5,935 nt of DNA, from assembly GCA_025464735.1 (NCBI GenBank), contig JAODMX010000036.1, forward strand, positions 1-5,935, in the 5' to 3' direction. Shown in pieces: positions 2,007-5,698 of the stretch. A program made the position numbers and the translations under genes. The notes below the pieces were generated by a model that worked only from the letters and a program-made list of their open reading frames with translations, was not told the origin of the DNA and did no database searches. The first letter of the stretch is position 1. Each line of letters starts with the position of its first letter. This DNA comes from Frondihabitans sp. GTDB lineage: Bacteria > Actinomycetota > Actinomycetes > Actinomycetales > Microbacteriaceae.

Positions 2007-2612
2007 TCAGGCGAGCACGCCGCCCGACTCCTCGAGATAGCACGAGGCACACAGGGGCTCGTACGTCACGCTCTCACCGTCGATGGCCACCTGATCGCCG
2101 TCGAAGACATAGCGGCCGTCGATGAGGCGGGAGTTGAACATGGCCTTGCGGCCACACCGGCAGATCGTCTTCAGCTCTTCGAGCGAGTGGGCGACCTCGA
2201 AGAGGCGCGCCGCACCCGCGAACGCCTTGGTCCGGAAATCGGTTCGGATTCCGTACGCGAGCACAGGGATGCCGTCGAGAATGGCGATGCGCAGGAGGTC
2301 GTCGACCTGCGACGGCGTCAAGAACTGCGTCTCGTCGACCAGGAGGCAGGCGACGTCTCCGCCGGTCGCGGAAACGACGCCGGCACGAGCTTTCGAGAAC
2401 ACCTCGAAGACGTCGTCCTCGGGCGCGAAGAGGAGATCCACCTGACGGGTGACACCCAGACGCGAAACGATCTGGTCGTCGCCGCGAGTGTCGGTGTCGG
2501 GCTTGGCGACGAGCACGTGCTGGCCGCGTTCCTCGTAGTTGTAGGCGGCCTGCAGCAACGCCGTGCTCTTGCCGGAGTTCATCGCGCCGTAGCGGAAATA
2601 CAGCTTCGCCAC
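2007..2612 (-). CDS. tdk: thymidine kinase (type II, TK1-like)
   Basis: 201 residues, full length for the family. It phosphorylates thymidine to dTMP with ATP in the pyrimidine salvage pathway (EC 2.7.1.21) in the cytoplasm; family members are tetramers inhibited by dTTP. Seen directly: the Walker A loop GAMNSGKST (9-17) close to the N-terminus; DETQ (93-96) with E94 as the expected catalytic base; YGIRTDFRTKAF (120-131); the zinc ligands CxC (C151, C153) and CxxC (C188, C191); and YEPL just before the last pair, in the substrate-binding lasso region. All key residues are present. The start is GTG at 2612, sharing one base with the TAG stop of the response-regulator gene, and no Shine-Dalgarno sequence is visible before it. 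Translation therefore probably depends on ribosomes finishing the regulator. It is the last gene of the two-component operon. Confidence 0.97.
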   Translation of the reverse strand: MAKLYFRYGAMNSGKSTALLQAAYNYEERGQHVLVAKPDTDTRGDDQIVSRLGVTRQVDLLFAPEDDVFEVFSKARAGVVSATGGDVACLLVDETQFLTPSQVDDLLRIAILDGIPVLAYGIRTDFRTKAFAGAARLFEVAHSLEELKTICRCGRKAMFNSRLIDGRYVFDGDQVAIDGESVTYEPLCASCYLEESGGVLA

Positions 2613-3355
2613 TAGAGCAAGTAACCGTCTTCGGCGGCACGACGGATCAGCTCGGCCTTCTTCGACGCCGGCCGGTTGGCCTTCGCGTATTTCTCGCGGA
2701 CCCGTCGGAGGTAGGTCTTCGCCGTCTCGTACTGAACATTCATCTGTTGCGCGACCTCGTTGGTACTGAAACCGGAGACGTACAGCCGGAAGGCCTCTGC
2801 CTCACCGGCGCTCAGTTTCGGCCTGCTCTGGCTGGCGGCCCCGACGGGGAGCGGGCGCCAGTCCCGCTGCGGCGCGCTGTCGCGCGCGACGCCCATGACC
2901 TGGCGTGCGGCGTCCATGACCTCCCGCATCGGAAGAGCCTTCGAGAGGAACGCCGACGCTCCGGCATCGAGGGCGCGCTCCCGCGATTCGCGGGTGTCAA
3001 GACTCGACAGGACGACCACTTTGGCTCCTGCAGCGCGACAGGTGCGGACCCGCGCCTCGATCGACACCGGCTCTTTGAGCTGGAAGTCGAGGAAGACCAG
3101 GTCGGTCGGGAAGTTGTCGCTGTGCACGAGTTGCAACCAGGTGTGCGCGGTGAGGACGAGATCGAAGTCGAAAGCATTGACGTTGATCCAGCTGGAGAGG
3201 CTGTCGAGGAGCACCTCGTGGTCATCGAGGATGGCCAGGCGAACTCGACGTTGCGGGGGCATCTCGGATGCGAGCGAGTTCCACGATGCCGCCGGAGCGG
3301 AGAGTGACGAGCTCGAGCGGAGAGCGGAGCTACCGTTCGGGTCAGTGCTGGTCAT
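2612..3355 (-). CDS. NarL/LuxR-type response regulator
   Basis: 247 residues; DNA-binding partner of the kinase(s) encoded just upstream. The receiver domain (about 37-155) begins VRLAILDDHEVL with the acidic pair D44/D45; VFLDFQL carries the phosphorylation site D90, VVVLSS the switch Ser (S117/S118) and FLSKA the conserved Lys K139. The C-terminal LuxR-type helix-turn-helix (about 181-240) is LSAGEAEAFRLYVSGFSTNE followed by VAQQMNVQYETAKTYLRRVR, somewhat divergent from the usual 'T.rE.EVL.L...G.s..EIA' pattern but complete. The ATG at 3355 overlaps the upstream gene by 14 nt and has AAGG 7 nt before it. Residues 1-31 are a Ser/Ala-rich extension not normal for the family, so the ATG at 3262 (M32, EMPPQRRVRL) is an alternative start, although its ribosome site is weak. 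The TAG stop overlaps the tdk GTG. Confidence 0.94.
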   Translation of the reverse strand: MTSTDPNGSSALRSSSSLSAPAASWNSLASEMPPQRRVRLAILDDHEVLLDSLSSWINVNAFDFDLVLTAHTWLQLVHSDNFPTDLVFLDFQLKEPVSIEARVRTCRAAGAKVVVLSSLDTRESRERALDAGASAFLSKALPMREVMDAARQVMGVARDSAPQRDWRPLPVGAASQSRPKLSAGEAEAFRLYVSGFSTNEVAQQMNVQYETAKTYLRRVREKYAKANRPASKKAELIRRAAEDGYLL

Positions 3356-4487
3356 AGGAAAACCTTAGTGTCAGGAGTGATTCGGTCACGTCGACCTGAA
3401 GGTCGCGGAACACGATGCGTAGGACGGCGAAATAGGGGGCGTAGAGCTGCCGGATGGCTGCATCGACAGCGGCGCTGTCCATGCGGACAAGGGCCCGGAC
3501 GACCGGGGTGCCGTCGTGCAGCACGATGCCCAGGCTGGAGGTGTCGGAGGCGACGTCGACTGCCATCGCGCTCACGAGCGCGCGAATCGCGGTTCGCTGG
3601 TCAGTGGTCATCCGCTCCGCCAGATGTGAACGATCGACGACCGTCCCGGCGAATCCGCTCGGGCAGATGTCGATCAGTGCCTGCTCCAGCCAGGTGCGGT
3701 CGGTTTCGGCCACGATGACGTCCCGGATAACGGCGGCGACCCTGCCTGCTCGCTGTCTGTCGTCGTCCGTGATCTCGTCGCGTTCAACCAGGTCGGTGAA
3801 GAACGGCACGACCTCGCGGTTGAGCGCGGTGACGCTGTCCTGCTGAACCGAGCGAGCGATGCCGGGACGCATCTCGAGGGCGCTCTCCTTGGTCATGACG
3901 CTGGCACGGGCGAGCCACCGATGAACCAGCCTGACGAGCGTCGACGAGTACGCTGCGCTGCCCGCCCCGAGCGCGACGACCGGGGTCAGGCCGACGACGA
4001 GGAAGGCGATCGGTGGCGCCTGCGTCGCGAAGCCGGGGACTTCGCGCCACACCACGATGCCCTCCACGATCGCGACGACGATCGTCCCAACGACGAGGTC
4101 GCGACCCGGGCGATACGGAGCACAGGCCAGGAGGAGGAGGCCGGCGACGGCGCTCCCCCAGTTGTCGCGGATCAGCGAGTCGTGCCCAGCCTTCGACACG
4201 GCCTCGGCGACAAGCCCCAGGATCCCGCAGCTCACGATCACGCCGAAGCTGCGGCGCGTGAACGGGGCGCGATAGGGCGAGGTCGCCACGGTCATGACGA
4301 CGGCCGCGACCGCAACGAGGACGATCCCCGCGATGGCGACTCGCAGGTTGACCTGACCGTCGCGGTGAATGGCAGTTCGCGCTATTGCCAAAGTCAAAGC
4401 GAAGATCGTGATGACGATCGAGATCGGACGCTGATTGAGAGCACCAAGAGGATCGGTCTGCTGTGCGGTGAGTTCCCGGTTGCTCAC
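3342..4487 (-). CDS. degenerate histidine-kinase-like membrane protein
   Basis: 381 residues from GTG at 4487. The start is chosen for its GTGA overlap with the upstream kinase gene and for GGGGGA 6 nt before it; an open frame extends further but only inside the upstream gene. Residues 22-190 carry about six hydrophobic segments (near 22-40, 50-68, 80-98, 112-123, 131-147 and 158-182), the architecture seen in NarL-family sensor kinases. The cytoplasmic part (190-381) has the size of a dimerisation plus ATPase module, but the region expected to hold the phospho-accepting His reads ARSVQQDSVTALNREVVPFF, with no His. No N-box NxxKH, DxGxG or glycine-rich ATP-lid motif is visible; the terminal TESLLTLRFSY could be a relic of the last ATPase strand. 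I infer a catalytically inactive sensor or partner subunit for the neighbouring kinase. A different membrane-protein family cannot be excluded without structure comparison. Confidence 0.8.
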   Translation of the reverse strand: MSNRELTAQQTDPLGALNQRPISIVITIFALTLAIARTAIHRDGQVNLRVAIAGIVLVAVAAVVMTVATSPYRAPFTRRSFGVIVSCGILGLVAEAVSKAGHDSLIRDNWGSAVAGLLLLACAPYRPGRDLVVGTIVVAIVEGIVVWREVPGFATQAPPIAFLVVGLTPVVALGAGSAAYSSTLVRLVHRWLARASVMTKESALEMRPGIARSVQQDSVTALNREVVPFFTDLVERDEITDDDRQRAGRVAAVIRDVIVAETDRTWLEQALIDICPSGFAGTVVDRSHLAERMTTDQRTAIRALVSAMAVDVASDTSSLGIVLHDGTPVVRALVRMDSAAVDAAIRQLYAPYFAVLRIVFRDLQVDVTESLLTLRFSYDQH

Positions 4488-5698
4488 GCGGCGTCCCCCG
4501 GCCGGGCCAGCAGTCGGGACTCGATCGGCAGCCCGATCATCACCGACGTGCCGCTTCCCGGCGACGACCACACCTGAACGGAACCTCCGACGCGCTCGAT
4601 TCGCGCACGAACGGAGTTCCTGAGGCCGAGACGATCCCGCGGGGTCGCGCTCTCGGTGAAGCCGACACCGTTGTCGATCACCATGACCGAGACATCGACG
4701 CCCGACGACAGAAGGACCAGCTCGGCGCTCATCGTCTGCGCGTGCTTGATCACGTTGACGAGGCATTGCGCCACGGCGAGTGACAGGGCACGAGCCCGCT
4801 CAGGAGTGACCACGGCCACGGCCGAGACGTCACCAGTCACGATCACGTCCAGCCCCTGGTCGCGTGCCTGCTCGACGGCCTGATGGAGGTCACTGGCCTC
4901 CCAGTCGCCTTGCGCAGCCGTCATGTTGGCAGCGGCATCGTGGATCCATTCCTCACCGACGAGGGTCTCGAGGTCGCGTTTCATCGATCGTGAGAGCGCC
5001 GGATCCAGGCCCCCTGGTGCAGCGATCGAGATCGCTGCGAGATGGCTGAGCACCGTGTCGTGCACAAGCGCCGATGCCTGCTGCTCGATCTCAACACGGA
5101 GGTTCGAGATCTCTTGGTCGCGGGCTGCCCGGTGGAGATTCGGTTGGGCACGCCTCGCACGATCTCGGGCGACGATCGACCCTCCCATAGTCACAACGAT
5201 GAGGATGTAGCCGAGGAGGGTCGTGAGGTCGACCTTGGGGGTGGCCCCGGTCTGCGCGGTCGCGATCTGGGTGGCAGCTTCGCCGGCGAGAAGGCCGAAC
5301 GTAGCCCAGAGCGGGCCACGTCGTGCGTAGAGACCGCTCCCTCCCACGAGGACGAGCGCTAGCTTCGGGAGCGACACCGCGAAGGCATCTGACGAGGTGA
5401 TGAAGCTGATTTGAGACAGCACGGTCACGGCGTAGACGTAGATCGCTGCCGCGCCGATCACGAGGTAGGCGATCGTCGAGAGGGTCGAGCGCACTCGCTC
5501 GACCAGGACGAGTAGCCCCAGCATCGGCACGAGCGACAGCAGAGCGGGCCACAGGATGAGCGCTGGCGCCGACACCTGTGCCGACACGAGCAGGATCGTG
5601 GCCCCCACCAGCAGGACTGTGGCTATGACGTGACAGGAGCGGGCGATTGCGCGGCCGGAACTCTGGGGAACGAGATGACTGGGGAGCCCGAGCAGCAC
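4484..5698 (-). CDS. membrane sensor histidine kinase (NarL/DesK-type)
   Basis: 404 residues. The N-terminal half has about six membrane segments (near 21-41, 45-66, 73-95, 106-122, 128-146 and 160-177) with little extracellular sequence, suggesting that it senses something in or at the membrane. A helical linker (about 188-212) leads to the phospho-acceptor motif ALVHDTVLSHL, with H213. ATPase motifs follow in order: N-box QCLVNVIKHAQ (N315, K318, H319), G1 box IDNGVGF (342-347), RLGLRNSVRARI (357-368) and GSGTSVMIGLP. It therefore looks catalytically intact, and should phosphorylate D90 of the response regulator two genes downstream. In relatives of the HDxxxQ type the Gln supports phosphatase activity; here that position is Ser (S218). 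Start: GTG at 5698 has AAGGAGGA just upstream (4-nt spacer from AGGAGG), whereas the longer frame from TTG at 5734 has no ribosome site. First gene of the operon. Confidence 0.94.
   Translation of the reverse strand: MLLGLPSHLVPQSSGRAIARSCHVIATVLLVGATILLVSAQVSAPALILWPALLSLVPMLGLLVLVERVRSTLSTIAYLVIGAAAIYVYAVTVLSQISFITSSDAFAVSLPKLALVLVGGSGLYARRGPLWATFGLLAGEAATQIATAQTGATPKVDLTTLLGYILIVVTMGGSIVARDRARRAQPNLHRAARDQEISNLRVEIEQQASALVHDTVLSHLAAISIAAPGGLDPALSRSMKRDLETLVGEEWIHDAAANMTAAQGDWEASDLHQAVEQARDQGLDVIVTGDVSAVAVVTPERARALSLAVAQCLVNVIKHAQTMSAELVLLSSGVDVSVMVIDNGVGFTESATPRDRLGLRNSVRARIERVGGSVQVWSSPGSGTSVMIGLPIESRLLARPGDAA

Follow-up and report, generated by a model that had tools for sequence, protein, structure and literature searches.

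The stretch of DNA analysed here (the window, 5,935 nucleotides of Frondihabitans sp., contig JAODMX010000036.1) carries a minus-strand operon in which the gene for a sensor histidine kinase is followed by a gene for a 381-residue partner protein and then by one for a NarL-type response regulator (Table 1). The kinase gene likely starts at the GTG at 5698, which gives the 404-residue protein of database entry P0124; its product matches Pfam HATPase_c (E 8.9e-9), its best solved relatives are the DesK/VraS-type kinases (HisKA_3 class) and, counted from this start, H213, N315 and DNGVGF are where the original prediction for this locus had placed them. The GTGA shared by the kinase and partner genes is likewise as described there, and the start of the regulator gene overlaps the end of the partner gene by 14 nucleotides. 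The original prediction took the second gene to encode a degenerate, kinase-like membrane protein acting together with the intact kinase, and we think it rather likely that the partner is the catalytically inactive member of a two-subunit sensor kinase.

Table 1. Features of the kinase–partner operon and the adjoining thymidine kinase gene
Feature	Position in window	Strand	Properties or basis
Intact sensor histidine kinase, 404 residues	4484..5698	-	Six membrane helices, HDTVLSHL H-box, N-box, DNGVGF G1-box
Codon of the kinase phospho-accepting His213	5060..5062	-	H in 121/121 loci
GTGA overlap, kinase stop and partner start	4484..4487	-	4-nucleotide overlap possible in 70/77 loci
Predicted pseudo-histidine-kinase partner, GTG start, 381 residues	3342..4487	-	No Pfam match, fold models, survey of loci
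Partner DHp-like helical hairpin, residues ~190-262, without conserved His (QQDSV; Pro228)	3702..3920	-	Conservation and AlphaFold2
Partner CA-fold domain, residues 265-381, without N- and G-boxes	3345..3695	-	AlphaFold2 and fold comparison
NarL-type response regulator, receiver and LuxR-type helix-turn-helix	2612..3355	-	Response_reg E 1.4e-9, GerE E 7.6e-6
Thymidine kinase gene	2007..2612	-	NCBIfam and Pfam

In AlphaFold2 models the kinase and the partner each have six N-terminal membrane-type helices, in keeping with the sensor-kinase size and six-segment layout first ascribed to the partner. The 381 residues contain neither DxGxG nor an N-box, the letters around the expected phospho-His position being SVQQDSVTALNREVVPFF; the absence of phospho-His, N-box and G-boxes claimed for the window protein was thereby confirmed. 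By its motifs the partner is not an active histidine kinase, having no conserved phospho-His and no N-box or DxGxG. Residues 190-381 are predicted not as an unrelated fold but as a DHp-like hairpin followed by a domain (residues 265-381) that fold comparison assigns to the CA (GHKL-type) fold, with DesK/VraS-type kinases among the best fold matches. A pseudo-histidine kinase has been described as kinase architecture minus one or more kinase functions (PMC12632262; this and the other papers below are cited from extracts), and by predicted fold and motif loss the partner fits that description. The Pfam scan gave no meaningful match, HATPase included, for the window protein (P0001) or for 37 members of its family. 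The six membrane helices with their conserved loop residues, the lack of any catalytic motif and the close operon link could also suit a LiaF-type membrane sensor or anchor, acting through the membrane only and with an incidental kinase-like end; however, none of the proteins scanned matched LiaF, and some of the best-conserved stretches of the protein are its cytoplasmic hairpin and C-terminus, which an anchor would not need; we consider this reading improbable.

Motif loss is family-wide and not confined to the window. Across 121 distinct loci (77 orthologous and 44 further, paralogous ones, leaving out the repeat fetches L078-L081 and L086-L093), the kinase keeps the D that follows its His in all 121, N in 120 and DxGxG in all 121. 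The partner has DxGxG at one locus, and His at column 215 in ten and at column 216 in three; homologues commonly bearing the His and ATP motifs were thus not seen. Pro228 is present in the partner at all 118 loci with a residue there and Leu222 at 112. The lost His most likely corresponds to column 215, since H stands there in those ten loci and two of them (L072 and L075) are H-box-like; counting backwards from where the first hairpin helix ends, column 224 also fits, and 223 is a further alternative if Pro228 is taken as H+5, where HisKA kinases have Pro. The L072 and L075 partners read VHENVLGVL at column 215, a nearly intact H-box, yet lack the ATP-binding boxes, and are possible intermediates in function loss.

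The kinases of these pairs are DesK/VraS-like by fold, yet are without the phosphatase residue of DxxxQ/H, at position H+5: 118 of the 121 have N, S, G or A there, two have V or T and one has H. Gln or His is present at this position in phosphatase-competent relatives. The main rival explanation draws on this position, at which one kinase in 121 has Q or H, and holds that the partner is a phosphatase or regulator-binding half whose hairpin dephosphorylates or holds the regulator while the kinase only phosphorylates. It is also favoured by an acidic-x-x-T/N pattern at partner residues 217-220, resembling the HisKA phosphatase motif, in 57 of the 77 orthologous loci, but only 5 of the 44 paralogous partners have the pattern, and many kinases are without measured phosphatase activity anyway. 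PMC12632262 argues that pseudo-histidine kinases do not in general act as phosphatases, and we regard this explanation as unlikely.

A kinase matching the profile of the window kinase lies directly upstream of the partner in all 77 orthologous loci; where the four-nucleotide overlap does not apply, the in-frame start permits one of 5-40 nucleotides (five loci) or none (two loci). The regulator is directly downstream in 69 of the 77; at one locus the contig ends there, and at seven Cryobacterium loci it is not adjacent. In 60 genomes, 70 of 70 partner genes have an upstream kinase, 67 found by profile search and three by inspection, the latter falling below the search threshold and still carrying an H-box and DxGxGF; the co-occurrence implied by the original prediction is therefore strict. 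Starting from the kinase, matches of at least 140 bits have a partner downstream in 42 of 42 cases. Weaker matches, which include other kinases, have a listed partner in 25 of 44 at 95-140 bits and in none of three below, and the one unpaired match inspected, L154, does have a partner. At paralogous loci the kinase is again upstream, with the regulator downstream, upstream or not nearby. In L123, L124, L126, L127, L111, L113 and L102 the regulator is upstream of the kinase and none is downstream, so that regulator–kinase–partner and kinase–partner–regulator orders both exist. Orthologues also keep their chromosomal place, lying between malate:quinone oxidoreductase on the upstream side and thymidine kinase on the downstream side, each present at 63 of 77 loci (gene names from NCBIfam on one example locus and the window).

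A protein search yielded 200 partner homologues at E<=0.01; among the 120 listed, lengths run from 347 to 399 residues with a single exception of 219, and the named matches listed come from Frondihabitans, Frigoribacterium, Conyzicola and other Microbacteriaceae, mostly annotated as hypothetical. With 200 homologues and family-wide motif loss, the gene is not a product of chance. Against genomes, a single-protein query gave no match in a first scan, and an alignment query of reference genomes gave the 77 orthologous loci, in which all named genera are Microbacteriaceae and a few records are named only Actinomycetota or Micrococcales. Partner matches occur in 194 of 299 Microbacteriaceae genomes, with up to four per genome, and paralogues therefore exist. 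At the level of the order, an alignment including paralogues matched 26 of 396 genomes, and at that of the class 13 of 296; these are partly the same Microbacteriaceae. The family is rare outside Microbacteriaceae, most sampled members of which keep the kinase–partner arrangement, often in several copies.

Kinase and partner trees, built on 118 of the 121 loci after three gapped ones were dropped, are congruent (Mantel r 0.88, reached in 0 of 2000 permutations, none of which exceeded 0.19) and share 71 of 115 splits; the pair therefore also duplicates as a unit. For 18 close pairs (synonymous divergence, dS, 0.15-0.39; many from Cryobacterium and thus not independent), the ratio of non-synonymous to synonymous substitution (dN/dS) is 0.12-0.47 for the partner and 0.09-0.21 for the kinase: the partner is constrained, though more loosely than the kinase. 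Local decay of a second kinase gene would account for the missing catalytic motifs, yet every relative sampled has lost them, nearly all the matches listed have an open frame and the dN/dS values speak of constraint; as far as sequence allows, decay is refuted, and we give it next to no weight.

Kinase and partner also occur as one protein. Among distant matches from other genomes, L139 and L141 each have a single open frame, kinase then partner, that matches both profiles (the L139 frame has one N stretch within the kinase membrane part). A further locus, L147, led to 37 fused protein clusters of 698-760 residues, those named being from Microbacterium and one Nocardioides gilvus, with public names of sensor histidine kinase or ATP-binding protein. 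In all 37 the H-box pattern and DxGxGF occur exactly once each, always in the first half; a narrow N-box pattern matches 23. Profile comparison with hhalign makes the C-halves of the fused proteins members of the partner family (96%, E 3e-9; 93%, E 5e-7 with orthologues only). An hmmsearch using the partner profile (E<=0.01) did not recover L147 itself, whose link to the family is by genome search (E 7e-6) and by profile comparison of its 37 relatives. The membrane parts of the fused N- and C-halves resemble each other (hhalign 66%, E 6e-5), pointing to an origin of the halves by duplication. A row of genes at L059 (8443-12309, Cryobacterium adonitolivorans) comprises a split pair without an adjacent regulator, a thymidine kinase, a different regulator and an 895-residue fused-looking kinase whose dead second half was judged by eye; six more Cryobacterium loci resemble L059 by match positions.

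Some relatives make the two as one protein, so the dead copy probably belongs permanently to the sensor and is not a leftover. Fusion of partner proteins is an established kind of evidence for a physical complex and, in view of co-translation, strict pairing, common history and fusion, a complex of kinase and partner would be by far the most economical reading. We hypothesize that the two proteins, made together, make contact through both their membrane helices and their long helices, either in a 1:1 pair or with two dimers interlocked, and that the kinase alone would bind ATP and be phosphorylated on His213, the phosphoryl group then passing to the NarL-type regulator encoded next. The sensor-like membrane part and constrained hairpin of the partner suggest a role for it in setting the kinase state: it may transmit or tune the signal by fixing the kinase conformation, with the conserved hairpin in contact with the kinase or the regulator and the membrane part perhaps as a second input. 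Tentatively, the assembly may be an obligately asymmetric histidine kinase of one live and one dead chain, each with its own six-helix sensor, held 1:1 through the DHp hairpins. Each complex would then have a single phospho-His, each half would take its own signal, and the fusions of Microbacterium and at least one Nocardioides would be single-chain pseudo-dimers.

The pairing of pseudokinase and kinase put forward in the original prediction is thus supported by linkage, shared trees, motif loss and fusions, but several points weigh against a two-subunit sensor kinase. Adjacency and fusion show linkage, not mechanism, and the dN/dS of the partner reaches about three times that of the kinase. 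The hairpin is the least certain part of the model (predicted local distance difference test, pLDDT, 58-72 at residues 201-230, with its minimum of 58 at 211-220; predicted template modelling score 0.56). Foldseek alone gave no match for the partner at E<=0.001, and coupling analysis with a reduced alphabet (101 effective sequences) gave top pairs that mixed membrane and cytoplasmic positions, were not interpretable and were not used. Direct profile comparison of partner and kinase found nothing (probability 0.3% for whole proteins, 0.9% for cytoplasmic parts from the 121 loci), so that homology of the partner to kinases is by predicted fold only. BLASTP of the partner gave nothing usable linking it to kinases, and a search among the sequences of solved structures gave no partner match. 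Descent from a kinase, also proposed originally, accordingly finds support in the predicted CA fold and none in direct sequence or profile comparison of the partner with the kinase. The same lack of similarity to kinases and to solved-structure sequences would suit a membrane protein of unrelated origin with a C-terminal alpha/beta domain that is GHKL-like by coincidence; given the predicted fold, we hold this to be very improbable.

RetS of Pseudomonas, a hybrid kinase, is not known to share a gene overlap or a fusion with GacS. The RetS–GacS pair resembles the proposed two-subunit sensor kinase in that one kinase controls another by hetero-oligomer formation (PMC9491836). DivL of Caulobacter, a pseudo-histidine kinase acting on CckA (PMC4211667), is similar in being kinase-shaped, lacking the phospho-His and acting on another kinase, its own kinase activity not being needed. 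However, DivL has Tyr for His and retains the H, N, G1, F and G2 boxes, all of which the partner lacks, and it reads a response regulator via PAS domains (PMC4211667), whereas the partner gene overlaps that of its kinase. The enterobacterial RcsD carries an Hpt domain after its dead kinase, and association of two dimers has been suggested for RcsC/RcsD (PMC13317618, a preprint); the partner ends at its CA-fold domain, at residue 381, and its Pfam scan gave no Hpt match. Closer in taxonomy, the ChrS pseudokinase of Corynebacterium glutamicum is an actinobacterial dead kinase that raises signalling through HrrS, but it is a laboratory-selected frameshift and not a natural conserved family; the native ChrS and HrrS kinases form heterodimers, and the truncated form gave none in a two-hybrid test (PMC9491836). 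DesK/VraS-type kinases, unlike the partner, are active homodimers. Of 16,025 HisKA_3 domains, 56 (0.3%) lack the His (PMC12632262), a count that needs a recognised HisKA_3 domain and would therefore miss partners of a family without a Pfam model. As far as the extracts go, none of the DivL, RcsD, ChrS and PMC12632262 cases is an obligate partner whose gene overlaps that of its kinase and which is sometimes fused to it, and no description of the partner family was found in the open-licence literature, a scope that leaves out subscription papers.

Homodimers are the accepted picture of histidine kinases, and pseudo-histidine kinases count as rare exceptions, whereas here a dead kinase would be a standing subunit family-wide, in a family that has diversified into several paralogous pairs with natural fusions. 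Many operons now listed as simple two-component systems would thereby gain a third component, and the pairs may offer a tractable natural system for the effect of a pseudokinase on a kinase, the two being always together, catalysis wholly lost in one, and fused and split forms open to comparison.

The Frondihabitans sucicola entry P0008 bears the public name 'FUSC family protein', for which the Pfam scan of the window's partner gives no support. Downstream, the regulator stop and the thymidine kinase start abut, both at 2612. At the far end of the window, a GntR-type regulator (1394-1861; best model Rv1152-like) and an amidohydrolase (153-1397) are encoded on the minus strand with a four-base overlap.
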